64,000 nucleotides of DNA from assembly GCA_907163375.1 (NCBI GenBank), contig CAJQUW010003382.1:1-64000 (forward strand), in the 5' to 3' direction. A program made the position numbers and the translations under genes. Each line of letters starts with the position of its first letter. Position 1 is the stretch's first letter. The notes under the pieces were generated by a model. It was not told the DNA's origin. It was given only the letters and a program-made list of their open reading frames with translations, and did no database searches. Source of the stretch: Prostheceraeus crozeri. Taxonomy: Eukaryota > Platyhelminthes > Polycladida > Euryleptidae. Below, piece by piece: positions 36,213 to 53,924 of the stretch.

Positions 36213-36988
36213 ATGGTAAGTCGCTGCTTCCCTCCCTCTCCTCCCTTGAACGTAAACTTAATACAATCTTTTTTCATTTTCAGGCATCTACTCCATCTGC
36301 TGCACTAGTAGGACAAAATGGCGGTCAAACGTTACAAGGTTCGCTACGGTCAGATCATCTACAACTGAGGCCAGTGGAAGAAACATCCAAGGTACATAAT
36401 CCTACACCGCTACAGCGTAAATTTAAACAAGCCTTGCGTTATGATGATCATAGCGTAGTACTCCAAACGGGAATGCTCCCTTCCACGGATGTCAAGATAA
36501 TGCACAATCAGTATGGGGACTACATACTGATCCCCGTGAGTCCGTACATTCGCCACCAACTTGATATTATTGAGGAGTACGTGACATTAAATATGGACAT
36601 TCCTACTCCTCTTGCTCAAGAGTGGAAGGCTAGAGATGACAAGGATACTCCCTATAGAAAGATTTGGGATGGTAATCACATTTGCCTACCGGTATCACAT
36701 TGGTGTACTTACTATAAGAAGGAGGGAGATCATTCAATACCCATCAGATGTGATGAGCTCGGAGAAGGTACTTGGGATATCCTTTTCAAAGTGAATGGGC
36801 TATATTATGGTCGACACAAGGATAATAAAATAGCCTCTCTCTCCATGCATATGGAATCCATCCTATATATTCCGAAACCACCCAACGTGGACGACATAAT
36901 TGATCAAATCCTTAACAGCAGTGGTACGAAGCGCAAGTCGGAGAAGAATGCTACATCAAAACGCAAATCAAAGAAGGAGAATTGCTAG
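36213..36988 (+). CDS. Polinton protein of unknown function (two exons)
   Basis: Exon 1 is only the start codon (36213-36215), directly followed by GTAAGT. The intron runs 36216-36283 and ends TTTTCATTTTCAG. Exon 2 (36284-36988) stays open and in frame, giving about 235 residues. Without splicing there is no nearby in-frame ATG. The middle is a soluble alpha/beta-looking region (IMHNQYGDYILIPVSPYIRH, then HICLPVSHWCTYYK). The last 25 residues are a Lys/Arg/Ser tail that looks like a nuclear-localisation or DNA-binding signal. I do not recognise the family. As the first gene behind a TATA promoter it may be an early gene. Confidence 0.75.
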
Positions 36989-37021
36989 TCCTTTCCTAAC
37001 TCTACCCTATGACAATTCGCT

Positions 37022-37150
37022 TATGTGCTTTGAGTGTCGTAGACGTGGTCTTATTAGATACATTTTACTTCTTCGTTGCCATCATATCATTTGTGTATTT
37101 TGTCGTGAAAAGCATCGATGTAATTCTTCATTTTGTAATATGTTATAGAA
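37022..37150 (+). CDS. Small RING-like zinc protein (partial or spliced)
   Basis: From the ATG at 37022 it encodes 42 residues with C-x2-C (CFEC), RCHHIICVFC (C-x-H-x3-C-x2-C) and a final Cys-rich tail. This is the first half of a RING-type cross-brace. The frame is open upstream to 36900, so a longer or spliced form is possible. It lies inside the intron that would be removed when the leader joins the exonuclease exon at 37183. Either a very small protein or a relic; compare the larger RING-like gene at 38226. Confidence 0.4.
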
Positions 37151-37182
37151 CGTTTCCTTAGATGTGTAAATTTCCGTTTTAG

Positions 37183-37731
37183 GCTTCTATCATCATTTTT
37201 ATGGATTGTGAGGGTGAACCTGTACAGGAGCTCAGTGCTATTGCTATGAACAATTGGACATATCAGATTGTTAGTGTCTATCATCAACATGCCAACTGCG
37301 ATCCCAATGTTGATCAATGGGCGAGAAAACACATTCATGGACTTAATCTGAAATATTTGCAAGACTATGGCTTTTCTTGTGAGAGTGCTCTTCTTATTGA
37401 CTTTAAACGATGGTTAGCTGCTTTCAATGTTATACGCATCTTTTGTAATAATCCTGGTAAGGAGAGGAAAGTATTTCCCAATCTAATCATTGATGATATT
37501 TTGCTCCCACCTTGGGATAGTAGAGTGAATCAACATTATCATGAAGTCACAAAACGTTTTAAGGATTTGTGTGTTCCTATTTTGTCTGTTCGTTGTAGTA
37601 GCTACGTTCATAACCAATGCTTCTTTCCTCCTTACCTCAACACTGCCAAAGTCCTGTATGGTTATCATTGCTCGCTGTATGATAGTTACCAGCTGTATCT
37701 ATTTTATCTCTTTCAAACCATTGATTTATAA
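37183..37731 (+). CDS. DEDDh-like 3'-5' exonuclease, Polinton accessory
   Basis: An acceptor (TTTCCGTTTTAG) ends at 37182. Codons from 37183 run in frame with the leader ATG at 36213-36215, giving about 183 residues. Unspliced translation could start at the ATG at 37201. Motif I looks like IIIFMDCEGEPVQE (D and E two apart), motif II like ALLIDFKRWL, motif III like GYHCSLYDSYQLYL (H-x4-D). This is the layout of DEDDh nucleases, which trim DNA or RNA 3' ends with two metal ions. The order is right, but the assignment rests on motifs only. AATAAA follows the stop at 37753. Confidence 0.5.
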   Translation, partial: ASIIIFMDCEGEPVQELSAIAMNNWTYQIVSVYHQHANCDPNVDQWARKHIHGLNLKYLQDYGFSCESALLIDFKRWLAAFNVIRIFCNNPGKERKVFPNLIIDDILLPPWDSRVNQHYHEVTKRFKDLCVPILSVRCSSYVHNQCFFPPYLNTAKVLYGYHCSLYDSYQLYLFYLFQTIDL

Positions 37732-37752
37732 TGCATGCTTGTTACCATTATT

Positions 37753-37758
37753 CAATAA
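37753..37758 (+). terminator. Polyadenylation signal of the first rightward unit
   Basis: AATAAA, about 22 nt after the exonuclease stop; it would close the transcript started at the 36105 TATA box. Confidence 0.55.
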
Positions 37759-37818
37759 ATGTTACTATGAGAAGAGTTGTTGTTTTCATGCAATGGATGG
37801 GTTAGATAAAGGGCGATC

Positions 37819-38229
37819 ATGTCTTTCTCAAACGACTGCGGAACATTACGTTTTCATAGGCAAAGTTTAAAAGGAGCTGTTCAAGATTATGTGATAAAAT
37901 TTCATAAAGATGAGACCGACATCGAAGCAGTGGTCGATGATGCTAGCACTCTATTTCTAGAGTTAATGAATACATTCTCTGATAGCATTATCATGGCGCG
38001 ATTAGTTGCGAAAATTAAGTTTAGTCATTTTGGAAAGGAAGAGGTGGAAAGTCGCTCTTTCCATTTTGCTTCTTATTCAATGGAAGTGGTAGATCACCCC
38101 CAAGAATTTTTTAAAAGACATATGATAAAAATTGCTGAACGTCTTAACGCATTTAACCATCATGGTAGCAGTCTAGTGATTGAAGCGATTTCAGATATTC
38201 ACATTCAACTTTCCATAAAGAAAAATTGA
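37819..38229 (+). CDS. Free-standing homologue of the Polinton POLB N-terminal domain
   Basis: 136 residues. The pattern MARLVAKIKFSHFGKEEV, then FHFASYSMEVV, FFKRHMIKIAERLNAF and SLVIEAISDIHIQL closely follows residues about 155-235 of this element's own polymerase frame (ALIYLKLKYIKIDF ... IFDGVDSAIFKISLLE). It also follows the N-terminal domain common to Polinton-type polymerases in animal genomes. Here it is a separate gene without polymerase motifs. It could pair with the polymerase or the terminal protein, or be a duplicated relic. The ATG at 37819 is the first in frame. Confidence 0.6.
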   Translation: MSFSNDCGTLRFHRQSLKGAVQDYVIKFHKDETDIEAVVDDASTLFLELMNTFSDSIIMARLVAKIKFSHFGKEEVESRSFHFASYSMEVVDHPQEFFKRHMIKIAERLNAFNHHGSSLVIEAISDIHIQLSIKKN

Positions 38230-38555
38230 AAATGCAGTGGTACTTGATTGTAGCACAACTGGTTTTCGAGCTATGTCTGCTCACTCTCGAAGTATATTCC
38301 TTCTGTACATGCGTCTATTATTTAGAAAAGGCTAGCAAATTCATATCTTCAAAAAGACTTGCTATAGACATCAGTAACGGTGAAACTATGTGTTGCGATG
38401 TATGTAAGCGAAAGGATGGAAATGAAAAGCGCATCTTCAAGAGATGTAAGCATGCTTTTTGTCAACGCTGTTTCATACGTAATTGCATTCAACTTTGCCA
38501 ATGTAACCACTGTGACATTGCTCATTTCGAGTGTCACTTATGTCGCAATAGTTAG
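38226..38555 (+). CDS. Membrane-anchored RING-like protein
   Basis: 109 residues. An N-terminal hydrophobic helix (WYLIVAQLVFELCLLTLEVY, residues 4-23, extending to about 32) would span or insert in a membrane. From residue 55 a Cys/His array follows: CCDVC, RCKHAFCQRCF, CQCNHC and CHLC. C-x2-C...C-x-H-x2-C-x2-C...C-x2-C fits a RING/B-box-type zinc fold. RING proteins are often ubiquitin ligases; whether this one is cannot be told. Its ATG overlaps the stop of the previous gene (ATGA-like spacing). A shorter protein starting at the ATG at 38388 would hold the zinc part alone. Confidence 0.6.
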   Translation: MKMQWYLIVAQLVFELCLLTLEVYSFCTCVYYLEKASKFISSKRLAIDISNGETMCCDVCKRKDGNEKRIFKRCKHAFCQRCFIRNCIQLCQCNHCDIAHFECHLCRNS

Positions 38556-38606
38556 TACCTATGCAAATGTGGTAAAGATAGGTTTTAGCAAAGACTAACA
38601 CGGAAA

Positions 38607-38963
38607 ATGGCGAAACGTAAAATGACGAAACGTAAAAGTCAAAAGTTTTCTTCAGCCATTCAAGCTCTCCGACGAATGAAAGCAAATCAGCGATACAATG
38701 CTATACGACATGCTAACGATAAATTCATTTGTGAAATTATTTCTCATGTGAGGAAGTTGAGGACGAAGAAATTAGCGCCAAAACAACGAAAGTTACTTAA
38801 GCGATATGCTACGAAATTGCGTTTCATCTCCAATCCTAAAGTCGCCCTTCAAAGAAAGAGGAAAACTCTAACACAAAAGGGCGGTTTCCTTTCAGCAATA
38901 CTTCCAATGATAGCTCCTGCCGTGGGCAACCTATTGGGAAATATCTTTGGCTCTAAGCGTTAA
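38607..38963 (+). CDS. Small basic protein with hydrophobic C-terminus (adenovirus pX-like)
   Basis: 118 residues, extremely rich in Lys/Arg over the first 85, then GGFLSAILPMIAPAVGNLLG near the end. This combination, basic DNA-condensing body plus amphipathic Gly/Pro/Ala/Leu tail, is common in small virion proteins of Polintons and adintoviruses and recalls adenovirus core/pX or pVI peptides. It would coat the packaged genome or act at the membrane. The call is by composition and position, directly before the packaging ATPase. Confidence 0.55.
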   Translation: MAKRKMTKRKSQKFSSAIQALRRMKANQRYNAIRHANDKFICEIISHVRKLRTKKLAPKQRKLLKRYATKLRFISNPKVALQRKRKTLTQKGGFLSAILPMIAPAVGNLLGNIFGSKR

Positions 38964-38994
38964 TTATGCAAATGTTGAGTCTCAAAGTAATAAA

Positions 38995-39612
38995 ATGGAT
39001 TTCAGACTTCAATGTGATAAAGTTCTGACTGTATCAGGTCCATCTCATGCAGGTAAAACTGTTTTCACGCTGAATTTATTGGATAAAAGAAGGGAGTTGT
39101 TTAAGGAACCTATCAATCGAGTGATTTGGTGTTATGGTATTTATCAACCGTCGCTGTTTCAGGAATTGCAAAGTCGCAACTTTATTCGACATGAAGGAAT
39201 TATTCCAGTGGATAAACTTCAGTCTAATGATGTTGTTGTATTGGATGATTTATTAAAAGAAAGTAAGAATTCAAAAGATGTTACAGATATGTTCACTCGC
39301 GCAGCACACCATAAAAGGTGTTTTATCATCTATATTACACAAAATTTGTTTCCTGATGGAAAAGAAGCTCGTACACGAAACCTGAATACACACTATTATG
39401 CTATTTTCAAGAATCCGCGAGATAAAAGTCAATTTGAAATTTTAGCGCGACAAGTTGCACCCAGAGGATCAAAAGCCTTAATTGAAATTTTTCAAGCAGC
39501 TACTGAAAAACCATACGGTTACTTATTCATTGACTTTACGCAAGAGTGTCCGGAAGAATTTAGATTTCGAAGTGATATTTTGAAAACTCCCATGATTATC
39601 TACAAACTATGA
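38995..39612 (+). CDS. FtsK/HerA-type genome-packaging ATPase
   Basis: 205 residues from the ATG at 38995. It has Walker A GPSHAGKT (residues 15-22), Walker B DVVVLDDLL (about 80-88) and a likely sensor ITQNLF. It pumps the DNA genome into the preformed capsid, as in adintoviruses, virophages and other double-jelly-roll viruses. The upstream start at 38947 is a TTG and overlaps the previous gene, so the ATG is preferred. The stop overlaps the ATG of the next gene (ATGA at 39609-39612). Confidence 0.93.
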   Translation: MDFRLQCDKVLTVSGPSHAGKTVFTLNLLDKRRELFKEPINRVIWCYGIYQPSLFQELQSRNFIRHEGIIPVDKLQSNDVVVLDDLLKESKNSKDVTDMFTRAAHHKRCFIIYITQNLFPDGKEARTRNLNTHYYAIFKNPRDKSQFEILARQVAPRGSKALIEIFQAATEKPYGYLFIDFTQECPEEFRFRSDILKTPMIIYKL

Positions 39613-40301
39613 GTTCTTATTCTCGCATGATTGTTATTCCTCAGGATGAATATGTACAATTGACTGCCATGCAGCAAGTAAAGCAACCTCTTGCAAATCA
39701 AATGTATAGGAAAGAAATAGATTATCAGCAAAATGTTCACATCAAAGATCCACATCGTGCTGTATTATTACAATCGGAAACTGTTGAGCAATTGAAAAAC
39801 TTGAAGAATAAGATGCGTGACTCTGTATCGACTGCTACACCTTTAGCATCTCGCGCACATGCCATATCTCTTTTCAACAGTATTGAACCCCATCTCAATG
39901 TAAATGATAGAGGAGAAATCATTACAGATGAAAATAAAGTGATTGATGCTTCACGTTATGAAGACTTGATTCAGTATGCGACACGTAGAAAGCGCCGTCA
40001 GGGCTATGTTCCACCTGGTTGGTCATACTTTCTTAAACTATTGAAAAAGCATAATGTGCCAAAATTTGCTTTAAATAATGAGACATTGAAAGAACTTGAT
40101 TCAACAGTGGCTACTACTCCAATGCTTCAGGCGATGAAAATGCCAACAAATTGGTTTAAGACGTCACCTGCTACATCCCCTCCCACACTCACTAAGCAAA
40201 CAAGGGGAAGAACTCGACGTAGATCTGTATCGCCACTAAAACTGGTAAAAGGAAAACGTAAAACAGCTCCTCCCAGGAAATACATGTTCTCAGACTATTA
40301 A
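39609..40301 (+). CDS. Polinton conserved structural-type protein, unknown
   Basis: 230 residues overlapping the ATPase stop by four bases. The N-terminal part (VIPQDEYVQL...) is mixed helix. Residues 70-150 contain SRAHAISLFNSI and RYEDLIQYATRRKRRQGYVPPGW, which could be a core domain and a basic linker. The C-terminus is basic and Ser/Thr/Pro-rich. Similar proteins sit between ATPase and capsid genes in many Polintons, but the function is not known to me. A virion or scaffold role is only an inference from position. Confidence 0.6.
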   Translation: MSSYSRMIVIPQDEYVQLTAMQQVKQPLANQMYRKEIDYQQNVHIKDPHRAVLLQSETVEQLKNLKNKMRDSVSTATPLASRAHAISLFNSIEPHLNVNDRGEIITDENKVIDASRYEDLIQYATRRKRRQGYVPPGWSYFLKLLKKHNVPKFALNNETLKELDSTVATTPMLQAMKMPTNWFKTSPATSPPTLTKQTRGRTRRRSVSPLKLVKGKRKTAPPRKYMFSDY

Positions 40302-40302
40302 T

Positions 40303-40518
40303 ATGAAGCAGATGTGTTGCTTGCCATGTAATGAGCCGCCAGAGGTGAATGTCGTTGTCACTTGCACTTGCTGCGCCAGCTCTCATAATGAAACCCCTAA
40401 GCAATGTGAACACGATCGCAAAACCGCTAAAGCTAAATGCTGCAGTTGTTGTAAATGTAGAAAGGGAAGAAAACAAAAAGATGAGAAGGAGGAAAAAGAG
40501 TCAGCCGTCATCGACTGA
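40303..40518 (+). CDS. Cys-rich small protein, metallothionein-like
   Basis: 71 residues with 14 cysteines, in MCCLPC, VTCTCCASS, AKCCSCCKCRKG and more. CC and C-x-C pairs are typical of metal-binding metallothionein-like peptides. The ATG follows the stop of the previous gene by one base, which supports it. The integrase frame starts inside it at 40349 or later, so the genes overlap by up to 170 nt in another frame. Confidence 0.5.
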   Translation: MKQMCCLPCNEPPEVNVVVTCTCCASSHNETPKQCEHDRKTAKAKCCSCCKCRKGRKQKDEKEEKESAVID

Positions 40519-41569
40519 ACGTTTGAAGTCAATCTACTATGATGTAAAACATCCGGCAGGATTTGCATCTATCAAGAAATTATCAAAAGCGAGTGGTCTT
40601 CCACAATCACAAGTGAAACGATGGTTAAAGGGTCAGGCTACCTATACACTCCACAAACAAGCGAAAAAGAAGTACCGCACCCGCCATTATATTGTTCATG
40701 ACATCGATGAACAGTGGCAAGCAGATTTGTGCGATGTTGCCTCCATTTCAAAACATAACTCGGGCAATAATTTTATTTTAACCGTCATTGATATTTTCTC
40801 GCGTTATGCGTGGGCTCAACCTTTAAAAACTAAAGAAGGGAAAGGAGTAGCAAAAGCATTCCAAACAATTTTTCGAGAAGGTCGCATTCCAAAAAGAATT
40901 CAGAGTGATCAAGGAAAAGAGTTTGAAAATCAGCATGTGACAAGATTATTTGAGAGGCATAACATTGAGTTGTTTAGTGTAAAGAGCGCTTATAAAGCTG
41001 CACTCGTTGAACGTTTTAATCGCACATTAAAAAATCGTTTGTGGCGACATTTTACTGCCAACTTGACACAAAATTGGACAAAGGTTCTACAAGATACACT
41101 CCATGCCTACAATCACTCTATCCATCGTTCTATTGGACTCAGACCAGTAGATGTAAATGCTGACAATGTAGATAAAGTGCGCGAATCATTCCAACGTAAA
41201 CGCACTCATGTGAAAAGTGATGTGAAAATTGGCGATAAAGTTCGTATCTCAAAAGTGAAAAGTGTTTTTGCTAAAGGGTACCTCCCGAATTGGACAGAGG
41301 AGGTATTTACAGTATCAAGGATTAATCAAAAAGACTCTCCGACCACCTACAAGTTGAAAGATTACGATAATGAAGAAATTGAGGGTAGCTTTTACCGCGA
41401 TGAGATTGAGGTAGTCACTGAAAGTGAAACATATTTGGTAGAGAAAATCATTCGATGTAAAAAACGGCAAGGTGAAGAATGGTGTCTTGTTAAATGGACT
41501 GGTTATCCTTCAAGTATGAACTCTTGGATGCGTCGTGCCGACATCTTTCATCTAAGTGATCGACAGTGA
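40349..41569 (+). CDS. Retroviral-type integrase with C-terminal chromodomain
   Basis: 406 residues from the first ATG; 40388 or 40481 are alternative starts beyond the Cys-rich ORF. An N-terminal helix-turn-helix-like region (KKLSKASGLPQSQVKRWLKG, about 76-95) is followed by the rve catalytic core with D126 (WQADLCD), D187 (IQSDQGKEF) and E221 (ALVERFNRT). A basic beta-barrel region (about 285-345) and a chromodomain (VEKIIRCKKRQGEEWCLVKW, about 356 onward, then GYPSSMNSW) complete it. The enzyme inserts the linear element and makes the 6-bp duplication seen at the ends. The chromodomain may steer it to modified histones. Confidence 0.95.
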   Translation: MSLSLALAAPALIMKPLSNVNTIAKPLKLNAAVVVNVEREENKKMRRRKKSQPSSTERLKSIYYDVKHPAGFASIKKLSKASGLPQSQVKRWLKGQATYTLHKQAKKKYRTRHYIVHDIDEQWQADLCDVASISKHNSGNNFILTVIDIFSRYAWAQPLKTKEGKGVAKAFQTIFREGRIPKRIQSDQGKEFENQHVTRLFERHNIELFSVKSAYKAALVERFNRTLKNRLWRHFTANLTQNWTKVLQDTLHAYNHSIHRSIGLRPVDVNADNVDKVRESFQRKRTHVKSDVKIGDKVRISKVKSVFAKGYLPNWTEEVFTVSRINQKDSPTTYKLKDYDNEEIEGSFYRDEIEVVTESETYLVEKIIRCKKRQGEEWCLVKWTGYPSSMNSWMRRADIFHLSDRQ

Positions 41570-41589
41570 TTCATGCAAAGTTGTAACTA

Positions 41590-41600
41590 ACAATGTTTAG
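41590..41600 (+). promoter_or_regulatory. Possible splice acceptor before the late structural genes
   Basis: TAACTAAC (branch-site-like, 41583-41590) then ATGTTTAG ending at 41600, ten bases before the next ATG at 41611. It would allow leader splicing onto the capsid genes. Weak evidence. Confidence 0.35.
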
Positions 41601-41610
41601 GGTTTGAGCT

Positions 41611-42066
41611 ATGAATCCAACTGCCTCATTTTATTCACGACCCTCCTACGTAAGTGGTGGAGGACAAATTTACATCGGTGCTCGCCGCCAACGTGGAGGT
41701 AGCATACTTGGTGCACTGAAATCTGTTGTAGCACCTCTCATATCCAATGTCGGTAGATCTTTAAAACGAAATGTTTTAAGTAATGCCGTTGGCTTTGCTG
41801 GTGATGTTGCTAGTGATCTTTCCAGAGGTAGAAGTTTTAAGAGCAGTTTGTTGAATCGTGGGAAGGAACGCGGTTTAAAAACATTGAAGCAGACCATTGC
41901 TGGTGTTACTCAAGGAAAGAAATCACCTAAACGAATGAGAAAAGGAAGGAGGAAACATCGCGGAGCTGGTAAGGTGCGATCTTCAGTCAAAAGGCATTCA
42001 CGCAAACGTCGCAGAGGCTCTAATCATTCATCAGGCGCTAAACGACGACGCTGCTATAACTTCTAA
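41611..42066 (+). CDS. pVI-like minor virion protein
   Basis: 151 residues. It starts with a Gly-rich segment (SGGGQIYIGARRQRGG), then an amphipathic helix region (SILGALKSVVAPLISNVGRS, residues 31-50). FAGDVASDLSRG and a strongly basic C-terminus with Arg/Lys/His runs (110-150) follow. The layout, position right before the major capsid gene and composition match the small membrane-active, DNA-binding proteins of Polintons/adintoviruses likened to adenovirus pVI/pX. It may be cut by the protease encoded downstream; Gly-Gly sites are present. Confidence 0.6.
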   Translation: MNPTASFYSRPSYVSGGGQIYIGARRQRGGSILGALKSVVAPLISNVGRSLKRNVLSNAVGFAGDVASDLSRGRSFKSSLLNRGKERGLKTLKQTIAGVTQGKKSPKRMRKGRRKHRGAGKVRSSVKRHSRKRRRGSNHSSGAKRRRCYNF

Positions 42067-42068
42067 TC

Positions 42069-43346
42069 ATGGAGTGTAAAACTTCCGGTTTTTGTTTGTT
42101 CGATCAACAAGCCATACAGACAGATATTCTTAGTTCAAGTATTGTAGATTATCATCCTCGAACAGCTGAGAATGCTGGCCCCATTGAATTTGTTATTCCT
42201 GGTGGTAGTGATGACTACATAGATTTGAGTTATGCGATGCTTGATTTGAGGTTTAGAATTCAGCAAGCAGATGGAACTGCTATTGACGATGCACATAAAG
42301 TTGGACTGAACAATTTACCATTGACTACATTACTTCGCGATGTTTCTCTAACGATTGGAGAGCAGCAGGTGGAAGGTGGTCAAAGCGATTATCCCTATAA
42401 ATCATATTTCAATCATGTATCACAGTTTCATCCAGCAGCACAAAAAAGTCATATGGAAGCCATGGGATGGTACAGAGATGAAGCAGGAAAATTTGATGTT
42501 GAAACAAACAGTGGCTTTGTAAAGCGATCTGCTATGATTAAAGATAGTAGAGTATGTCAGCTATATGGTCCGCTGAATTTAGACTTCTTTAGACAGTCAA
42601 AGTTTTTACTCTGTAATACCAGCATGCGACTCAAGCTGACATTGAATAAGCCTGAATTTGCGCTGAATGCATTTGCTAAAGTTGACAATTTTAGAATTCA
42701 TGTGGAAGATATTGCACTTTACATTCGTCGAGTAGTACCGAATCCAAGTGTCATTAGAGGGCATGCTGAAGGTCTTAACCGCCAAAATGCCATTTACCCC
42801 GTTCAGCATACAAAGCTTCTCACCTTTACAATTCCGAAAGATCAAAAGAGTTTCATGAAAGATGGCCTCTTTCCATCGGAAGCACCGAAGCTCCTCATGG
42901 TGGCAATGGTTGAAAATGATGCATTTAATGGTAATATAAAGAAGAATCCTTTCAATTTTAAACACAATCAGTTAAGTGAAATTGCTTTACGTGTTAATGG
43001 TGTGAGTCATCCTGGTCCACCCTACAAACCAGATTTTGCTTCGGATCAATTTATGCGCAGTTATGTTGATTTTATGGATGTCTTTGGCTTTTACAATACG
43101 GATGATACCAACGGACTGACTATGAAAGAGTTTAAGAGTGGATATACTATTTATGCATTTGATTTGACTGCTGACAGCGATATTAGTGCACCCTATCGTC
43201 AAGCGAACGTGCCTCATAATATTCGTTTGGATTTGACGTTCAAAAGAACACTACCTGAGACGATCAATGTATTAATTTATGCAGTCTTCGATTCAAATAT
43301 TGAAATTACAAAGTATCGTGACGTGATTCTTCAGTATAATCGTTAA
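42069..43346 (+). CDS. Major capsid protein, double jelly-roll type
   Basis: 425 residues. The N-terminal hallmark is IVDYHPRTAENAGPIEFVIP then DDYIDLSYAMLDL, with LRDVSLTIGEQQV and the YPYKSYFNHV block. These are seen throughout animal Polinton capsid-like proteins (annotated in many genomes as F54H12.2-like). The C-terminal half holds QFMRSYVDFMDVFGFY and IRLDLTFKRTLPETINVLIYAV strands. Trimers of such proteins tile icosahedral shells in adintoviruses, virophages and adenoviruses. TAA/ATG overlap (TAATG at 43344-43348) couples it to the protease. Confidence 0.85.
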   Translation: MECKTSGFCLFDQQAIQTDILSSSIVDYHPRTAENAGPIEFVIPGGSDDYIDLSYAMLDLRFRIQQADGTAIDDAHKVGLNNLPLTTLLRDVSLTIGEQQVEGGQSDYPYKSYFNHVSQFHPAAQKSHMEAMGWYRDEAGKFDVETNSGFVKRSAMIKDSRVCQLYGPLNLDFFRQSKFLLCNTSMRLKLTLNKPEFALNAFAKVDNFRIHVEDIALYIRRVVPNPSVIRGHAEGLNRQNAIYPVQHTKLLTFTIPKDQKSFMKDGLFPSEAPKLLMVAMVENDAFNGNIKKNPFNFKHNQLSEIALRVNGVSHPGPPYKPDFASDQFMRSYVDFMDVFGFYNTDDTNGLTMKEFKSGYTIYAFDLTADSDISAPYRQANVPHNIRLDLTFKRTLPETINVLIYAVFDSNIEITKYRDVILQYNR

Positions 43347-43807
43347 TGAGTTGGTTGACTGCTGACGATATTAAGACTAAAGTGCAGCGTAATGCAGACG
43401 AAGCGACGTTGAAAGCTTTCGATAATGTCTATTCACTCGATACCTTACCACCTGCAGTAAATCACTATCCCATCTTTATTGTGCTAAACACTCATTCACA
43501 GAATTTAGGCGGTGAGCATTGGAAAGCGATCTTTATTGGAGAAGACCGACGTGGTGAACTATTTGACTCTCTTGCTCAACCTCCAAATATACCAACACAG
43601 CAGTGGTTGAGAAAACATACGCGTCAATATCAGCGAAATGAACGCATACTACAACATCCACTTTCATCAACGTGTGGTGCTTTTGTACTGTACTTCATCT
43701 TAAAACGTTTACATGTATCTCGATTTGCATCTGTTATTCAAAACTTTTCATGTAATCCATCCTCTAATGAAAAAATGATTTGTAAGTTCTATCATGATTT
43801 GAAATAA
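43346..43807 (+). CDS. Adenovirus-type cysteine protease
   Basis: 153 residues. The catalytic set is visible: H58 in GEHWKAIF, E71 or D74 in GELFDSL, Q103 before HPLS, and C110 in SSTCGAFVLYF. This is the C5/Ulp1-like fold that matures virion proteins in Polintons and adenoviruses. It follows the capsid gene directly (one-base overlap). AATAAA overlaps the stop (43803-43809), so the transcript ends at once, against the convergent TBP-like gene. Confidence 0.92.
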   Translation: MSWLTADDIKTKVQRNADEATLKAFDNVYSLDTLPPAVNHYPIFIVLNTHSQNLGGEHWKAIFIGEDRRGELFDSLAQPPNIPTQQWLRKHTRQYQRNERILQHPLSSTCGAFVLYFILKRLHVSRFASVIQNFSCNPSSNEKMICKFYHDLK

Positions 43808-43833
43808 AAACATCATGTTGGAAAAATTGTTTT

Positions 43834-44379
43834 TTATTTTACAATCCGCTGGGTACGTACATACTCAATGAGATAGTCTAGGATCATATTTGCTTGTTCA
43901 TGAGATTTTAGTCCAGTAATGATCACTTTACTATTATGAAAGATTGCCACATGCACAGGCAACCAACAACTAATGAGAGCTGCAGGAAAAAGTTCGGGTT
44001 CATAACACAAACTGTAACTGCTGGTACGAATCTTCAAAAATGATAGACTGTCACTCAATTGAGTAGAGATCACCATATTGTCCACAGTCAGATTCGACAT
44101 CACACACCTCTCCCTCTTCCATATCCGACGTAGTAGTCTCTGTAGCTCTAAGCGCATTGACTGCGCCGATGAATGAGAAAGGGCGCCGAGAATCTGTACA
44201 GTCCCATTTGGGAAGAGTTGAAGATTCCGTGAATTGTTCATCTTCACCACTAACATTTGAGGACGGCCCGGGTAATACTTGCTGTTTGGAAGCTGTTGGC
44301 GTAATGTTGTGAGATCGATTTTGGTGTAGAGTCTGAAGCGACGGAGAATGTTGACGATGGTGTAGCGATGGCGCTTCAT
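43834..44379 (-). CDS. TATA-binding-protein-like protein (two TBP repeats)
   Basis: 182 residues from the ATG at 44379 (the frame is open to 44523). Repeat 1, residues about 7-75: YTIVNILRRFRLYTKIDLTT, KYYPGRPQMLVVKM and LQLFPNGTVQILGALS. Repeat 2, about 84-178: TVDNMVISTQLSDSL, CYEPELFPAALI and VAIFHNSKVIITGLKSHEQA. Each shows the TBP pattern I-x-N-[IM]-V, Y-x-P-x-x-F/P-P, then F-x-x-G-x-[IV]-x-[IL]-[TL]-G. Two such repeats form the saddle that bends TATA DNA in cellular TBP. It would let the element direct TATA promoters, several of which it has. The conserved phenylalanine pairs are only partly kept. The 5' end overlaps the neighbouring ORF in another frame; the stop overlaps an AATAAA signal. 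Confidence 0.72.
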   Translation of the reverse strand: MKRHRYTIVNILRRFRLYTKIDLTTLRQQLPNSKYYPGRPQMLVVKMNNSRNLQLFPNGTVQILGALSHSSAQSMRLELQRLLRRIWKRERCVMSNLTVDNMVISTQLSDSLSFLKIRTSSYSLCYEPELFPAALISCWLPVHVAIFHNSKVIITGLKSHEQANMILDYLIEYVRTQRIVK

Positions 44380-44701
44380 GATGAAAGAATGAGTAAATTG
44401 AGCGATGTACCTTCCTTTTATACTTTTCCCAACTACCTTGATGAAATGTGAAGTTAGTATGAAGTTGGGAATGATAGAGTTGAATTCGCCGATTGTTGAC
44501 GCGCAGCCAGATGCGATTTCCAATACGTGAATGTCTTTTCATATAGAAGTATTTCAAGTCCTTCATGATATGATGTAGAGATTGAAAATGACGATAAGAT
44601 AAAACAAACTCTCTTCTCACATTTCCAGTTGAATCTTTGAAATAGACGTTTCGATCATGATCCGTTTCAATATGTTGTAGGGAATCTAATTTCCAACTCA
44701 T
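44051..44701 (-). CDS. PC4-like protein B, with a C-terminal extension overlapping the TBP-like gene
   Basis: 216 residues. Residues 1-107 are a tandem paralogue of the 44724-45092 gene (SLQHIETDHDRNVYFKD, SYRHFQSLHHIMKDLKYF, GSWEKYKRKVHRSIYSFF). The homology stops at 44380, exactly where the TBP-like ATG begins. The remaining 109 codons are open in the other frame and encode a Pro/Ser-rich then acidic tail ending DMEEGEVCDVESDCGQYGD. Either the tail is real and the two genes are overprinted for about 330 nt, or the gene truly ends by splicing near 44380. Function as for protein A. Confidence 0.6.
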   Translation of the reverse strand: MSWKLDSLQHIETDHDRNVYFKDSTGNVRREFVLSYRHFQSLHHIMKDLKYFYMKRHSRIGNRIWLRVNNRRIQLYHSQLHTNFTFHQGSWEKYKRKVHRSIYSFFHHEAPSLHHRQHSPSLQTLHQNRSHNITPTASKQQVLPGPSSNVSGEDEQFTESSTLPKWDCTDSRRPFSFIGAVNALRATETTTSDMEEGEVCDVESDCGQYGDLYSIE

Positions 44702-44723
44702 GGTGCGTGGTAATCATATCTGA

Positions 44724-45092
44724 TTAAGATTTGCATAGTAGGGCGATGAACTCACGACGAATAAATGTCATGATGGAGCGATGTATGTATCTTCTATACT
44801 TCTCCCAATTGTATTTGCGAAATGAGAAACAGTTTGCGGAATGAGAATGGTAGATTTGAATTTCATTTCTGTAATGTTGAAGCCAAACTTGATCACCCAA
44901 GGAGATGAATCTTAATGTTTCAAAATATTCCAAATCCCTCATGATATCATTGAGGTTGACAAATTGTCGCCATGTTAATGTAATTCCTCTTGATGTATGA
45001 CCATGAGAATTTTTGAAATGTACGTTTCCATCACGATCAACTCTGATATATTGTAGAGAGTCCAAAATCCAAGTCTTCATGATGTTATGCAA
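44724..45092 (-). CDS. PC4-like protein A (putative ssDNA-binding transcription cofactor)
   Basis: 122 residues; the better start is the ATG at codon 5 or 6. The pattern is D-G-N-V-H-F-K, a turn with SRG, ITLTWRQFVNLNDIMRDLE, then a second strand set (QVWLQHYRNEIQIYHS) and FSFRKYNWEKYRRYIHRSI. A beta meander followed by (I/F)-x-L/F-x-x-x-x-W/F-x-x-(L/Y)-x-x-x-I is the signature of PC4/Sub1, which binds single-stranded DNA and helps TBP-dependent initiation. Here it appears twice in one chain, like an internally duplicated PC4. The call rests on pattern only. It sits head-to-head with the penton-like gene (start 45116), so the about 23-bp gap must hold both promoters or transcripts overlap. 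Confidence 0.45.
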   Translation of the reverse strand: MHNIMKTWILDSLQYIRVDRDGNVHFKNSHGHTSRGITLTWRQFVNLNDIMRDLEYFETLRFISLGDQVWLQHYRNEIQIYHSHSANCFSFRKYNWEKYRRYIHRSIMTFIRREFIALLCKS

Positions 45093-45115
45093 AGTTGCAG
45101 ATTAGCAATATAAAA

Positions 45116-46513
45116 ATGTCGTTTTATCATATTTTGCTTAGCAATGCGGCTACAAAGAGATTTACTAGCAATCGAGCCGCACTCTTTTCTACTCCCATTG
45201 ATCATGCACAACAGCTAAATGGGAATTGGGAAGTGGGTGTCACTCAACTTGTTTATAGCAACTGTGTCTATACTTTTGATCATGAGGTGATGACTATTAA
45301 TATGAGGCGTACAGCTGCTTATCAATGTGAAAAGGGGTGCCGAGTATACATTCCACAGTGGCCAAAGAAAGATCTCTTATCATGTAAAAAGTTTATATAT
45401 GATTTCTTGAATAAAGCGTGTAAACATATTGTCCAATTTACTCCGCACAATGATGATTATAATTATGTACATCATGTAGTTGAGAAAGATTGGATTGTTG
45501 GTTTAAGTCCAAGTTTAAGAAATGATTTAGGCTACCTCGCTAGCGCCTTAACAAGCTATGATAATTTTAACGTTAATTACCACATAAGTGGTCATAAACA
45601 GTTAATATATCGAGAGGAAGCTTATTATGTAGATCTTATTCCAAGAAATGAGAAGACGTTGGTGAAGAAGATTGTGATTAAGCCAAGAAAGACAAACATG
45701 ACTCCTGAAACATTATTGAAGAAATTTAATTATCTCCTTCGAGTTGATGACAAACAAGTGGCAACATTGACTTATATTAAATCATCTAATCATATTGCAA
45801 TAAGCAAATTAAATGATGATGATCTAGTATTAGTTTGTTCAAAAGATTTTCATCAGTTCTTACGACATCGTTCTGCAGCTGTTCATGGAAAATCTGATAT
45901 GCAACATTTACCATGTGAAAGGTCAAATCAATTTGATACAGAATGGGCCGTATCTTTATACAGAAAGTGTGTAGAGCCTTTTGGTGGCTTCTTACATGAA
46001 ACAAGAGTGTTGATGCCTCGCATTATTACTTCGGTTAAATTGGTTGTAGATTATTTAAATGAAGTGATTAATGAGCAACATATTTCATTTTCTGAAAAAG
46101 AAGGTACTTTGTCTCTCACTATAAATGGAAAAGGTATTGAACTAATTATGGATAAAACTCTAATGGACATTTTGGGTTTTGATCAAAATATCTTTAAAAG
46201 TGGTACTGTAACCAAAGCTAGCGCAGACATGTCGCTATCGCGTCGTATTAACTATTTTCAGATATATTCCAATATTGGTGAAGATGTACGTGTGGGAGAT
46301 GTTGAAGCTCCATTGCTAGCAATGATACCATACCAGCCAAAAAGCTGCAGTATTTTATCTGAGCATACTTTCAAGAAAGTGCATTATACAAAGCTGAAAT
46401 CAAACTACATCCCACAAATTGATATTGCCATTTATGATGATGCTGGTGCGTTGATTCCTTTTCATAAAGATGCTGTGACAAGTATTACACTCCATTTCCG
46501 AATGAAGAGTTAA
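45116..46513 (+). CDS. Penton-like minor capsid protein, paralogue 1
   Basis: 465 residues from the ATG at 45116 (a TTG-started extension to 45095 is unlikely). N-terminal signature: FYHILLSNAATKRFTSNRAA, then LNGNWEVGVTQLVYSN. It matches the (L/Y)-x-S-N-x-x-x-x-F-x-x-N ... L-x-G-x-W-E-V-G/A motif of Polinton minor capsid (penton, single jelly-roll) proteins. The C-terminal third has ISFSEKEGTLSLTINGKGIE and a LGFDQNIF motif seen again in paralogue 2. It would form the five-fold vertices of the particle. Confidence 0.75.
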   Translation: MSFYHILLSNAATKRFTSNRAALFSTPIDHAQQLNGNWEVGVTQLVYSNCVYTFDHEVMTINMRRTAAYQCEKGCRVYIPQWPKKDLLSCKKFIYDFLNKACKHIVQFTPHNDDYNYVHHVVEKDWIVGLSPSLRNDLGYLASALTSYDNFNVNYHISGHKQLIYREEAYYVDLIPRNEKTLVKKIVIKPRKTNMTPETLLKKFNYLLRVDDKQVATLTYIKSSNHIAISKLNDDDLVLVCSKDFHQFLRHRSAAVHGKSDMQHLPCERSNQFDTEWAVSLYRKCVEPFGGFLHETRVLMPRIITSVKLVVDYLNEVINEQHISFSEKEGTLSLTINGKGIELIMDKTLMDILGFDQNIFKSGTVTKASADMSLSRRINYFQIYSNIGEDVRVGDVEAPLLAMIPYQPKSCSILSEHTFKKVHYTKLKSNYIPQIDIAIYDDAGALIPFHKDAVTSITLHFRMKS

Positions 46514-46522
46514 TGCAAAAGT

Positions 46523-48073
46523 ATGCTAATATATTTTTCCAATGTGAATAATATGGAAAGTGAAAATAAGGACTCGTTTCTAATCTACTTGCCCAGTAAT
46601 GCTTCTATGAATAAATTTCCCAAAAATAAACCATCAGACTATCGAGTAGAATTAAATCGGCCACTGCATTTAGAAGGTGAATGGGAGGTTGGCGTTTCTA
46701 GTATTTGCTATGATAGCAATATTCAGAATGTGAATGATTTGGAAGAAATGATATTGACTCCTCGCACCCATGATGGAATAACGATGAATAATGCATTTCA
46801 GTTCCCATACAATTTAACATCAGATGGAAAGTGGAACTATGAATGGATTCAGATAAAATCAGATTCTTATGAGCCATTTGGGAATGAGAAAATTATTAAG
46901 GCATTCAACAGTGGTAATACTTCCATCATGAAGAATAAAAATCAGAAAGCTTATGAGTTTACTATCTATCATTGGAGTGGGAGACAGTTCCTCCGCTTTC
47001 ATTCTTTTACTAAAGGTCTTACGCTGAGGTTGGATAGTGAATTCTATCCACATCTTGGTTTTGGTCATGGACTACATCTAACGTCAATTGCTACTGCAAA
47101 TGTTAAAAAAGTTTATTCAACTCGAATCAACAAATTTCATTATAGATTTAAAATATTTGATGAAGATGTTGTAGAATGTGAAGAACGCATCATTTTGAAA
47201 AAGCGTGGTGTTCAACCTTTATCACTTATTGAGTTAGTAAAACGATGGAATGAGACTGTGGGTAAGAAGTATGGAGAGAAAATTATGGCGGACAAAAATA
47301 AGTTGGTTATTCAGAAATATAATGACAAACTTACAGTTTATTTCTCTCCAACCTTGCGTCATTTTGTAAGACATTATACGCCTATTATTGGAAGCGGTGT
47401 GGTGTATGGTTCTCATGAATATCACACTAAAGCTGATTCAGTTAATGATGAATGGTGGGTGGACATCTATGGCGATCGCATCAAGAAAATTTACCAGTCT
47501 TATGAAGAATCTAAAGTTGCTATCAATATAATGCCGCGTCTATATCATACAGTTGAAAGCTTCATTCATGTAGTAAATCCTTATATACAACAGAAGTTGA
47601 AGCATGTGATGAAAAGTAAATATGATGTAAAGACACACCACATTTCGTTTTCAATTGAAAATCAACGCGTTGTTCTGAAACTGGGTGATGACATTCAATG
47701 TCAATTGAGTAAAAATTTGAAAAAACTCTTTGGCTTTTCAATGCTACAAACTGTGTTTGCTGCTGCGCATACGATTGGTATAGAAACACCAATGACACTT
47801 GATAAACATGAACAGCACCTTTACATTCAAAGTGATTTGATTCTACCTATTTCTGTTGGCGAGAAAAAAGAATACATTTTACGTGATTTCATTCATGATA
47901 AAGACGCTTCATATGGAATAGTCGAGAAGATGTTTGAATCTATTTTCTATCATCCCGTCGTCAAACAAACTATACCCTCTATTGCTATCAAAATTACCAA
48001 TGGTTTACAAGAGTGTATCCATGTGAAAGATACTAAATCCCTCGTAACTTTAGTGTTTCGGAAAACAAAGTGA
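46523..48073 (+). CDS. Penton-like minor capsid protein, paralogue 2
   Basis: 516 residues; the ATG at 46553 is an alternative start giving MESENKDSFLIYLPSNASM. It holds LPSNASMNKFPKNKPSDYRV and LEGEWEVGVSSICYDS, the same opening as paralogue 1 and closer to the family consensus. ISFSIENQRVVLKLGDDIQ and LKKLFGFSM match the C-terminal part of paralogue 1. The pair is a tandem duplication; they may form mixed pentons or one may be a fibre/spike. AATAAA signals for both strands lie at 48090-48105. Confidence 0.8.
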   Translation: MLIYFSNVNNMESENKDSFLIYLPSNASMNKFPKNKPSDYRVELNRPLHLEGEWEVGVSSICYDSNIQNVNDLEEMILTPRTHDGITMNNAFQFPYNLTSDGKWNYEWIQIKSDSYEPFGNEKIIKAFNSGNTSIMKNKNQKAYEFTIYHWSGRQFLRFHSFTKGLTLRLDSEFYPHLGFGHGLHLTSIATANVKKVYSTRINKFHYRFKIFDEDVVECEERIILKKRGVQPLSLIELVKRWNETVGKKYGEKIMADKNKLVIQKYNDKLTVYFSPTLRHFVRHYTPIIGSGVVYGSHEYHTKADSVNDEWWVDIYGDRIKKIYQSYEESKVAINIMPRLYHTVESFIHVVNPYIQQKLKHVMKSKYDVKTHHISFSIENQRVVLKLGDDIQCQLSKNLKKLFGFSMLQTVFAAAHTIGIETPMTLDKHEQHLYIQSDLILPISVGEKKEYILRDFIHDKDASYGIVEKMFESIFYHPVVKQTIPSIAIKITNGLQECIHVKDTKSLVTLVFRKTK

Positions 48074-48084
48074 AGTCATTGTGA

Positions 48085-48110
48085 TATGTTTATTGAAATA
48101 AAAATATGTA
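48085..48110. terminator. Convergent polyadenylation signals
   Basis: TTTATT (about 48088, minus-strand signal for the polymerase gene) and AATAAA (about 48099, plus strand) lie side by side between two convergent genes. Confidence 0.5.
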
Positions 48111-48252
48111 TATGAAAAAGTCTTTTCACAGATATAGGGGGAATGGGCTGACTGTAGGCATATATTCACAAGGAAGAAACGATCTCATGCGATACATAAA
48201 ACAACCATGTATATCTACAAAAAGCAACATCAAAATACTGAGTTAAAGTTGA

Positions 48253-51200
48253 TTATGTCAATACATCTCCTGAATGTGGTAGCGTGAGTTTTATTCTTTT
48301 GGGTGGAGGTATGTTTGTGTCAGGATGTCCATGTGGAAGAGATGTGTTATGTCCTATCCAACACCTCTTATCCTCCCATGCTGAAAGTGCTCGTTTCTTG
48401 AACGTGTACGTTTTCACAGTATGAACTTGAGATTTTAAGATTGTCATATTGACAAACGTTATAGTTTTATTTTTATAGGCCTTCTTATAGGACCGATGTT
48501 TCATTTTATGAACAATGGATTTTGATATACCTTTAGCACGCTTAATACTATCTGCACATTCTTTTAGTTTCATGGAATACATTTTAGGACGGAGGAGAAT
48601 CATTTCATCTATTTCCTTTCCTGCTGTTTCATCCTTAAAACAACCAAGTTTGGCTTTATTCTGTATGGAATAGAGTGGATGAGTGGGATTGTAGTTAGAT
48701 GTATCGAAATATTTTTCTAATGACTTACCTACTTCATTAAAATTTAAATCTTTTTGAGTGGTAATTCCTAAAAAGAAACTATCTGTATCACCACCCAGCA
48801 AGCGAACCTCTTTTACGAGAGGGCATGGTTTTAATATTTTGTAGAAGAGTTGATACATTTCAAGCTTGGAATAATCTAAAACGGCTTGCCCAATATAGAT
48901 GGGTTTGCACAACTCAACTTCTGATTTAATCATTTTAACACCTACAAGATCCTCATCGATGATGTCTCTATCAATGAAAAGAGGTGATGAGGTCAATTTG
49001 TGATATTTTTGTTCATCAACGACTAGTTTGTAATTCATACGTTTTCTAACATCCTCCATGGTCTTTCCGAATAGACTATTATTCTTATATTTATAAAAAT
49101 CCTTTTCAAAATTATTTTGGGCGAGTGCACGTTTTTGACTGTTACTATCTATGTAGGGTTTGAGGAAGGCTTTCTGTCTAAATTTGATAATGCGGTGAAC
49201 TGACTTTAGAAGCATGCCCATTTCTAAATAGAATTTTAATATGCAGAAGTGTACGAGATAATTTTTCTTATCATATTGGGTGAGTAAAAGTTTGCGGCAT
49301 GGTTTGTACCTTGGCTGTCCACACTCTGTTAAGTTATTATGAAATTGTGACATGAATGGTGAAAACATATCTTCAGTCACTTCGCCAGATTCAGGTGCGA
49401 GTGGGAAATCAGCAGTTTTATTTTTAATACTATTTGGATAAATCAAATCCACTTCAAAATAATATCCCCAATCACCTTCATCTGGAATATTCAGTATGTT
49501 TGAAGGGTTGGAGTAATACTCAAGCTCATTTTGATTTAACCAACTAAACTCGGAATGAGGTAGTGGTTTAGACAGTGAACTGCCATATAAATTATTTTGG
49601 TCATAGTACTTTAGGTGGATATGATCATCACCTACTGTTTCAGATTTTATATGATGTTTATTTACAAATGTGAGACCACCGCGTATTCCGCGCTCAAATA
49701 TATTATACATCTCCGGGTCTTGTAAGAGATGAATGGTCTCACCAGTCATTTTAAAGGCTGATTTAAAGGACATGGCTGGTAGACTGACAAAGTGGATAGG
49801 ATCTAATTTGTCTTCTTCTAATGCCACTCGTCGAAACTCCTGAAAGACATCAGCCAGCAAAATGACATCTAATTCTAAGTAAGCGATCATATAATCGCCA
49901 AACGTTTTACAATTAAATTTTAACCATGCCTCTTGAGCATGTTCATAGTCCTCTACTGGACAATCTTCACCCGTCAAATCGTTTTTGAATTTGTCAATGG
50001 AAGGAAGGGTTGTTTCATTTAGTTTAGACATTGAGCTAAAATACGCATAAGGAAAGACTCCTTTGCGAGTGATTATTTCATCCGTTAAGTTTGGATAGTG
50101 TTTCTTCAAAGTTTGACTATGGGGAAGAAACTTGAGATTACGAACGAGAGAAGCTAGTGACGCTGACATGAATTGAAATGAATCTAAAAATTTTATTTCG
50201 AAGAAGACTGTCTTATTTTCTTTAGTTTTATCTACTGGTACTTTTGCTGTCATTGCCATGAATTTTTCTCTCGTTTGTGCTATTACATTAAACTGCCACG
50301 ATTTCATCTGGCTCAACCCTCCTTTTATGAGCATATGACTGTCATAGCCCTTAAAGTTATGAAAAATGACGGGTAGTACACGACGTCTCAACCTAAGTGA
50401 AAAGTTACATTTGGAGCAGAGTGCGTTTCTAAATTTACCAGTGATGTGATCATGATCACGCACTTTCTTAATTTTATCGTCATCAAACGTTTTATGACAT
50501 TTAGGACAGGATGTGCAACTTTCAAATTTTTGTTTGTCTTCATCTGACATATGTAGTGACTTACGCTGCAATTGGGAATCATATGATTGTTGAAATTTTG
50601 CAGCTTTATCGAGAAATTCTAGAAATTTTGAAATGCAATCTTCACCTTGCCAAGTATGCATTTTGTTTTGTCTATTCCTAAAGTGGTCATGCCATACTTC
50701 ATAGCAGGATATGGCTGCTGGCTTGTGGATGATATCATCAATGTAGCATTCTATGTCTGCGTAAATGACACGCAGGGGACTTAATTCGTCACCATTATCC
50801 CTATGTGAAAATATTTTATCTTTGGGCATGCGTTCCATTTGTAATTTACCTCGCTTGCACCATTCATAGTGAGTTTCAAATTTATCTTTACTCCAAAATG
50901 AGCGGATGCAGCGGTCGCATACAAAATGTTCACCTCTTTTAGAGTGCCCCAAGTGAGTGTACAAGCGAGAGATTTTGGGAATACCACAGTAGTGCCATTC
51001 CTCGCTATCATCTTGTTTTACTAATAAGAGGTTGACTACACGTTCATAACAAGTTGAACGTGAATTATAGCGGGCACCCTTCAACCCCTTCTCCCACACG
51101 TGAACGACAATTTTAATCTTATTATGTTTTTCGAACGTTTCTACATCTTTGATTTTCATGTTGTTACTATCACAACCTTCAAAGTCTAGTTCATCCTCCC

Positions 51201-52225
51201 ACTGTCTATAGCTATAGGTGCGATCTCGATGCGCGTTGATATCATTATAGTGAAGGATGGATAGGACTGCATATTTGAAACACTGTGATTTACAATCAAC
51301 ATTGATGACAGCTTTCTTATTATACAACGTTTTTGGAAGTTTAAATGTGCCTCGAGCTGCATGACTTTCTAATAGGGAAATTTTGAATATGGCTGAGTCC
51401 ACACCATCAAAAATGAGAGCGCTGTCGCGTTGATTGAATTTATCTACATTTGATTTTAAACATTGAATGTGAAAATTTAGCCAAGACTCGCAGTCTACAA
51501 CTTCGGTTGCGGAAGAGGAAGGAATATGAAACTGTATTCTCTCCGTCACTTGACCCGTTTGAAAATCTATTTTAATATATTTTAGTTTAAGGTAGATGAG
51601 CGCCTTCATTCTAAAATTGTCTAAATTATTGAAGAGCGCTTCGATAATGTTAGAATTTTGAAGGAGCCACTCAGGAAAATCTACAATTTGAGTATTGGAC
51701 TCCATGCAGTAGTCGCGTACTAAATTATTATGTGAAACATTAATGAGGGAGATGGTAGAGGTACCGTTGGTGTAGTGATCATTTGCATGCGTGTGTTGAA
51801 GTCTGTGCGAAGATCGCTGAAAGTGACTATCAAAAGAAAGAGGGCACAAATCGCAAGGAAAGGAGATGTCATCGTCAGAATCAACTTCACCTCCGGAGAT
51901 TGACGCCGCTTTGCGTTGACACACACGTTGTTTGATGTGTCGAAGGAGACTGTGCTTCCTTGTAAACATATGTCCGCAGTCGGCACATTCCCACTCGTTG
52001 CCTTGCCGCGAGAGTCCTGAGCTGGAACTCACATCACCTGAAAGAGAAATCATTCTTTCATCTCTGTTCAAGCCTCAGTGTAGTGTTACAACCTACCTTG
52101 ACTCAATAACTCTAAACTTTCCTCGAGAAGAGAGGGCGTTGGTGATGAAGTTGATGTCTGAAATTGAGGAAGATGCTATTAGTCACACGTTTGAGGGAGA
52201 TGAGAGGAAATTTTCAACTTACCAT
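48253..52225 (-). CDS. POLB: Protein-primed family B DNA polymerase (Polinton POLB), three exons
   Basis: The main frame is 1272 codons. Exons inferred: 52225-52223 (ATG only), 52157-52097, and 52037-48253. Donors are GTAAGT and GTAGGT; acceptors AATTTCAG and TTTCTCTTTCAG. The joined frame is continuous (1282 residues); unspliced, no ATG opens the frame before codon 7. Residues in the long frame: C2H2-like zinc fingers at 29-51 and 73-93, the Polinton N-terminal domain about 150-240, a third finger at 385-405, Exo I D439/E441, an inserted zinc/HNH-like block 522-555 (DHDHITGKFRNALCSKC), Exo II N572-D577, Exo III Y731/D735, motif A D824 (YYDQNNLYG), motif B 997-1004 (NNSLFGKT), motif C D1095/D1097 (GGDTDSF). 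It copies the element from its ends with a protein primer. All catalytic motifs are intact. Confidence 0.93.
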
Positions 52226-52290
52226 TTCAACGAAATCAAGTTTAAGGTTGATACTTCTACAAGATAGAGACTTCACTCAAATAATAGTCA

Positions 52291-52315
52291 AAGAGAGAGA
52301 TCGTGCGTTCGTCAC
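52291..52315 (-). promoter_or_regulatory. Shared downstream promoter/leader motif (POLB copy)
   Basis: Minus strand reads GTGACGAACGCAC, then CTCTCTCT, about 50 nt after the TATA box at 52363-52370. It pairs with the motif at 36160-36185. Confidence 0.65.
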
Positions 52316-53922: not shown

Positions 53923-53924
53923 AC

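Follow-up and report, generated by a model that had tools for sequence, protein, structure and literature searches.

Does a virus-like transposon bring its own core-promoter factor, and which promoters would such a factor read? These questions are raised by a 64,000-nucleotide stretch of the Prostheceraeus crozeri genome (contig CAJQUW010003382.1, positions 1 to 64,000; hereafter the window), in which an initial annotation had placed a TBP-like protein beside two PC4-like paralogues in a Polinton and proposed that these factors let the element control its own transcription. Judged from sequence comparisons, the TBP homologue of this abundant Polinton-like element is probably an altered-specificity promoter factor. 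The idea of an element that brings its own core-promoter factor is kept as the best reading, in this altered-specificity form, and the PC4 part of it is unproven.

The carrier element has terminal inverted repeats, an exact 6-bp target duplication, which is a hallmark of Polintons/Mavericks, and an rve integrase (Table 1). Its 5' tip at position 35341 is AGTAGTAAGCAAAACTCCAC, and the opposite end at 59383 is the reverse complement of AGTAGTAAGCAAAACTCCAC. The large ORF is a PolB candidate named by its motifs, and searches of Pfam, PDB and NCBIfam gave no polymerase match; the presumed capsid gene was labelled from its position, and searches of PDB and Pfam gave no match. Because PolB, capsid, ATPase and protease have no firm family matches, the terms "virion" and "packaging" genes are putative throughout. 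The listed start of the left-end gene is internal, the predicted spliced start being the ATG at 36213, and this predicted splicing suggests nuclear transcription by Pol II. The right side of the element contains direct-repeat arrays at 52970-53584 (205 nt, three units), 53922-55059 (144 nt, three units) and 57648-58825 (295 nt, four units). The neighbouring genes 45116-46513 and 46553-48073 (both on the plus strand) cross-match each other's homologues at several loci (29-48% over short stretches) and therefore look like an old tandem duplication. Elsewhere in the window, positions 945-2648 (plus strand) hold an intact DDE_Tnp_1_7 (piggyBac-type) transposase ORF (E 3.4e-78).

Table 1 Features of the window and element families referred to in the text.
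Feature	Position	Strand	Basis or remark
Polinton-like element	35341..59383	.	24,043 bp; ends AGTAGTAAGC... inverted; inverted arms, termini, target duplication
Target-site duplication TATAGA, left	35335..35340	.	
Target-site duplication TATAGA, right	59384..59389	.	
Left-end gene	36213..36988	+	Predicted 68-nt intron 36216-36283, GTAAGT...CAG; joined exons form an open frame
A32-like packaging ATPase candidate	38995..39612	+	Pfam Pox_A32 E 0.022, below cut-off
rve integrase with chromodomain	40349..41569	+	Pfam rve (E 1e-10) and Chromo, both above cut-off
Capsid candidate	42069..43346	+	Position; conserved in families B and D (52-54% over long stretches)
Ulp1/adenain-like protease candidate	43346..43807	+	Pfam Peptidase_C48 E 0.0012, just below cut-off
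TBP homologue, 181 aa	43834..44379	-	Pfam, PDB, 60 PF00352 relatives
"PC4b", 216 aa	44051..44701	-	Tail overlaps TBP; relatives P0068-P0077; families B and C
Overlap of PC4b tail and TBP start	44051..44379	-	329 bases, different frames; synonymous shuffles
"PC4a", 118 aa	44724..45080	-	PC4b paralogue, 44% identity
PolB candidate, large ORF	48253..52071	-	Motifs; Endonuclease_7 the sole Pfam match above cut-off
TATAAAAGG, TATA box of TBP gene	44414..44422	-	-43; within PC4b coding sequence
TATAAATAG	36107..36115	+	106 nt upstream of predicted spliced start of left-end gene, ATG 36213
ATGCAAA	38561..38567	+	46 nt upstream of ATG 38607 (mu-like gene)
ATGCAAA	38966..38972	+	29 nt upstream of ATG 38995 (ATPase-like gene)
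ATGCAAA	41573..41579	+	38 nt upstream of ATG 41611
ATGCAAA	45087..45093	+	29 nt upstream of ATG 45116
ATGCAAA	46513..46519	+	40 nt upstream of ATG 46553
ATGCAAA	44730..44736	-	35 nt upstream of PC4b ATG
Family A			Window element
Family A'			TBP about 81% identical; L049, L060, L061
Family B			TBP 42% identical; L029, L030, L036
Family C			TBP 41-43% identical; L031-L034
Family D			TBP 40% identical; L035

The TBP homology of the 181-aa product is solid at the level of sequence. The two TBP repeats first described are confirmed, in one open frame of 181 codons, and Pfam PF00352 matches the product in two stretches with 74.2 bits against a cut-off of 22.9 (E 7.6e-21). Solved archaeal and eukaryotic TBPs in the PDB cover most of it (best sequence E 2.8e-14; profile E 7.6e-25), and ten NCBIfam TBP models match with a best E of 1.7e-19, all under their curated cut-offs. 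A protein search with the element TBP returned 60 relatives out of 99 candidates, all 60 with a precomputed PF00352 assignment, and an alignment of the element TBP with 36 of these 60 has 18 invariant columns. In an unrooted tree of 65 rows, 62 Polinton-type rows, 56 of them without DNA context, are separated from three cellular TBPs with support of 100/100. The metagenome relatives sit on contigs up to 24,690 long, and a Polinton context for them is suggestive at most; a second metagenome TBP clade (P0050-P0062) has just 37-43% matches in this genome among the 150 best-scored. DNA searches of viral contigs (queries: the TBP alignment, the 42069 protein, the PC4-like alignment and PolB) and of genome contigs (query: the TBP alignment) found no relatives.

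The genome comprises 2.05 Gb in 14,165 contigs. Querying it with the TBP protein gave 11,886 first-look candidates, and the 150 best-scored of these are all 100% identical over 181 residues and free of stops. Amplification of the element is recent and frequent. With at least 150 identical-TBP copies and about 11,000 first-look candidates, the Polinton expansion is unusually large as well as recent. The Pfam TBP search (best 150 of 10,982 candidates) recovered host TBP exons (L009, L011) and a TLF-like gene (L010, L017), both named by reading of the sequence, together with many Polinton-type TBPs, some with stops; the presence of both host genes points to a metazoan. Diverged element families also carry the TBP gene, at 40-82% identity to that of the window, and the frame is conserved in related elements (families A', B, C and D), where a lack of conservation would have counted against the original proposal. 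The neighbours of the TBP gene in families A, A', B and D are the protease on one side and, on the other, homologues of 45116/46523, whose order is inverted in D; in family C it adjoins homologues of 37201 and 36374 at three of four loci, the fourth (L034) showing PolB alone. At L059, of family B, the mu-like gene 38607 is matched twice in tandem, with A(A/G)GCAA at -36 in both cases.

The surfaces of 20 Polinton-type TBPs (4 from this genome and 16 of the 60 relatives, those 16 being metagenome proteins without Polinton placement) were compared with the TBPs of the host, M. jannaschii and E. cuniculi, using yeast residue numbering and the DNA-contact and TFIIB-contact roles of the yeast residues. 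Residues F116, N159, V161, E188 and F190 are kept in 20 of 20 proteins, F207 and T215 in 19 of 19 readable ones and N69 in 18 of 18. The changes are concentrated in the first half: F99 is replaced by Pro and T124 by Leu, Met or Phe in all 20, V122 by Gln in 19 of 20 (Lys in family D), L114 by Gln in 18 of 20, and V71, in all 19 readable proteins, by Leu, Met or His. The second half is otherwise canonical, except that L205 has become Ala or Thr in all 19 readable proteins, so the change is not limited to one half of the protein. Four phenylalanines of TBP are described as intercalating into DNA, two on each side (PMC10005294). Having all four is a trait that defines TBPs able to bind TATA, though not the Pfam TBP family, and the element proteins retain three of them (F116, F190, F207), with F99 replaced. 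The altered-TBP reading is supported by TRF2, which has lost an intercalating Phe and, according to the same source, TATA binding as well (PMC10005294).

TFIIB-contact residues of the second stirrup are retained (E186 in 19/20, E188 in 20/20, L189 in 18/20). Their retention next to altered DNA contacts would also be expected if the element TBP were a repressor or decoy that dampens host transcription by tying up the TFIIB of the host or by competing with its TBP. We consider this improbable, as the second-half DNA contacts N159, V161, F190, F207 and T215, which a decoy would not need, are retained too.

Which promoters could such a protein read? The initial annotation had counted several TATA promoters in the element. 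TATA-type hexamers occur within 120 nt upstream of only 3 of 18 gene starts, namely TBP (-43), 45116 (at -7, where the hexamer abuts the start) and 52482 (-119), and the TBP box alone is at a promoter position, so the claim is mostly wrong. In the other families, the TBP start is preceded by TATAAA at a distance of 43-47 nt at six of eight loci (not at L034 and L035); these six loci belong to just two families and are therefore not independent.

A different motif is enriched upstream of element genes. Between -60 and -20 in family A, the top 7-mer is ATGCAAA, found at 6 of 15 genes (Table 1), and an equally common 7-mer arose in 1 of 5000 random sets. The top 6-mer in family B is AAGCAA, at 6 of 11 genes, with a result as good in 3 of 5000 random sets; at other lengths family B is less unusual (5-mers, 264 of 5000) or not unusual (7-mers, 1188 of 5000). 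Separate de novo counts in the two families thus converge on AxGCAA, or A(T/A)GCAA, at 29-46 nt (A) and 33-47 nt (B) upstream of the starts. A loosened pattern finds the motif in 7 of 11 family B genes (P 1.2e-7), a test that we do not count as independent because the pattern was loosened after family B had been inspected. Family A' retains most family A sites. Strict ATGCAAA was absent upstream of the genes read in families B-D; at three family D starts inspected by eye, it was noted at one. Over the whole window TATGCAAA has no enrichment (4 observed against 5.57 expected), three of the nine ATGCAAA copies within the element precede no gene, and of the six sites in family B two fall inside the coding sequence of the gene before. 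TAAGCAAAAC is present even in the tip of the element, so the motif may have another purpose.

Whether a Polinton-encoded, element-specific TBP with changed promoter specificity would read A(T/A)GCAA on element genes is, in our judgement from these sequences, an evenly balanced call. The element TBP could instead still bind ordinary TATA, raising TBP supply or displacing host TFIID, while A(T/A)GCAA is read by another factor, for example by an octamer (POU) factor of the host or a different protein of the element. For this reading counts ATGCAAAT in family A, which equals the octamer; the octamer does not, however, agree with AAGCAA in family B. The conserved TATA box of the TBP gene would suit a TATA-binding protein, but few element genes own a TATA box for it to serve. 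Three of the four intercalating Phe are present, and three-Phe TBPs such as that of Plasmodium are cited as still able to use TATA-like boxes (PMC5825884), whereas the first-half contact residues are replaced alike across the Polinton-type family. On balance we regard binding of ordinary TATA as less likely than changed promoter specificity, which is the preferred reading.

The two proteins next to TBP were originally described as tandem, same-strand paralogues upstream of it. They are indeed paralogous, the 44% identity extending over 112 aa, and yet not simply upstream, since the tail of PC4b overlaps the TBP gene. The reading frames indicate that TBP is overprinted on the end of the gene for a small protein of uncertain kind that may be PC4-like. 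The PC4b frame runs over the TBP gene for about 110 codons in three families, and in intact copies of families A, B and C it stays open 101-112 codons beyond the TBP start. When TBP codons were shuffled synonymously, the observed open run was equalled in 1 of 3000 shuffles for the window, 2 of 3000 for L025 (family A), 12 of 3000 for family B and 6 of 3000 for family C. The tail keeps FSF-x-x-A across the three families and mostly S-I-E close to its end. In many other copies the tail frame is disrupted by stops or frameshifts. Between families A and A', dN/dS in the overlap stretch is 0.70 for the PC4b tail and 0.23 for TBP, while TBP dS is 0.30 inside the overlap and 0.46 outside, on few changes; with a tail value of 0.70, dN/dS lends no support to an overlapping tail. 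Such a value, together with the broken frames, would be expected if the tail were non-coding and its frame open by chance over the TBP gene, although decayed copies would show broken frames too. The 101-112 open codons in three families, the rarity of equally long runs among the shuffles and the retention of FSF-x-x-A in all three make an open frame by chance improbable.

A PC4-like match accompanies TBP at 23 of 24 Polinton-type TBP loci (28 minus four host loci), eight of which closely copy the window; only L018, the same place as L035 of family D, has no such match. By family, there are two PC4-like genes in A and A' and one in B and C. Locus by locus, A' shows two PC4-like regions, every B and C locus has a single one, and L035 has none, the family B frame being whole or in pieces. 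The N-domains of families B and C match each other with E of about 1e-9 and match PC4a of the window weakly (E 0.005 to 1.7e-4). In some decayed family C copies (L038-L041), deletions have joined the PC4-like frame to that of TBP, giving a single long ORF.

The PC4 identity of the two paralogues is unproven. The proposed resemblance to PC4/Sub1 survives as a weak, colinear profile similarity and finds no echo in Pfam, where PC4 matches none of the 15 PC4-like family members. By hhalign, the PC4-like alignment against five PC4 rows gives 48 colinear columns (P 0.012; 3 of 400 column shuffles score as high), a weak result, and against two PC4 rows P 0.023 (2 of 400 column shuffles). This alignment is a lead only, because PC4 had been proposed from that very pattern. 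Unlike PC4/Sub1, the element proteins lack the REYY and GExKPG stretches, and they have an additional conserved half of about 60 residues; no internal repeat was found in them by hhalign. Searches of Pfam, PDB, PHROG and NCBIfam gave no convincing cofactor match, and a whole-genome PF02229 search gave nine candidates and three matches, all reading as ordinary PC4. Among rejected matches, the best PDB rows for PC4-like alignments (protective antigen, a nicking endonuclease and uS10) had E of 0.07 or worse, an adiponectin row (E 0.00054) was a 19-residue match repeated along the chain with no stretch passing alone, and isolated weak Pfam rows, of which FAZ1_cons (E 0.00051, 1 of 15 members) was the best, and the PHROG rows were judged to be chance.

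The proteins labelled PC4 may not be transcription cofactors at all, but proteins that bind single-stranded DNA during protein-primed replication, or proteins of an unrelated kind, a reading that we place somewhat short of an even chance. It agrees with the missing cofactor matches, with the three ordinary PC4 places that Pfam PC4 alone yields in this genome, and with the fact that PC4 itself binds single-stranded DNA; the weak colinear alignment to PC4 speaks against it. So does the overlap with TBP, intact in family C despite other neighbours, which may reflect a functional link or merely genes made inseparable by overlapping.

The direct results behind our model are the TBP homology, its conservation in several families, the residue changes, the gene overlap and the enriched motif; we infer TBP-to-motif binding, temporal order, TFIIB recruitment and any PC4-like function. 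Under the model, a Polinton lineage would have acquired a TBP long ago, retained the half with the TFIIB-docking residues, which holds one side of the DNA, and remodelled the half that holds the other side, and the element would supply a second, private core-promoter factor. Host TBP would drive the TATA promoters of early genes, namely that of the element TBP and the left-end gene with its predicted intron. The element TBP would bind a TATA-like but distinct box, A(T/A)GCAA, 29-47 nt upstream of many other genes, which would be the putative packaging and virion genes, and would recruit host TFIIB and Pol II there. The model expects the element TBP to favour ATGCAAAG/AAGCAAAG over TATAAAAG. 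Its fullest version, which we advance tentatively and rate below the change in specificity, would give an animal Polinton lineage a dedicated core-promoter system, with a TBP whose first half would read a private A(T/A)GCAA box in place of TATA, a herpesvirus-like switch from early (host TBP) to late (element TBP) genes and another regulatory protein encoded over the TBP gene.

If the model is true, a 24-kb virus-like transposon can carry a private version of a highly conserved eukaryotic promoter protein, and its TBPs and promoters would form natural altered-specificity pairs. How Polintons switch on virion-type genes would become directly testable under the model; the diverged TBP surfaces of several families would also offer material on how TBP reads DNA.

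Viral TBPs are already known from mirusviruses, African swine fever virus (pB263R) and herpesviruses (vTBP). Searches on Polintons, Mavericks and adintoviruses, in literature mostly outside subscription papers and preprints, gave no title or abstract describing a Polinton TBP. African swine fever virus differs from a Polinton in being a large cytoplasmic virus with its own RNA polymerase. Its pB263R is a predicted viral TBP with three intercalating Phe, like the Polinton protein, and 12-15% identity to cellular TBPs (PMC5825884). For mirusviruses, TBP is reported in 59% of genomes (PMC10132985), and mirusvirus-like integrated elements in Cymbomonas are likewise described as encoding TBP (PMC10675990). 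These share with the Polinton case a TBP in a eukaryotic DNA virus or integrated element, whereas mirusviruses belong to another realm, with an HK97 capsid and hundreds of kb. A functional parallel to the proposed early-to-late switch is the virus-encoded TBP-like factor of beta- and gammaherpesviruses (ORF24, BcRF1, UL87), which acts at late promoters with a TATT box instead of TATA and uses host Pol II (PMC7498053). This vTBP was found by fold threading alone and has other domains and five partner proteins; in contrast, the Polinton protein is a plain two-repeat TBP recognized by an ordinary Pfam search, with a different, putative motif. Metazoan TRF2/TLF, a TBP paralogue that has lost a DNA-intercalating Phe and is reported not to bind TATA (PMC10005294), is in contrast a cellular gene in which other residues were lost. 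The host genome contains such a TLF-like gene, with F116W, F190H and F207Y.
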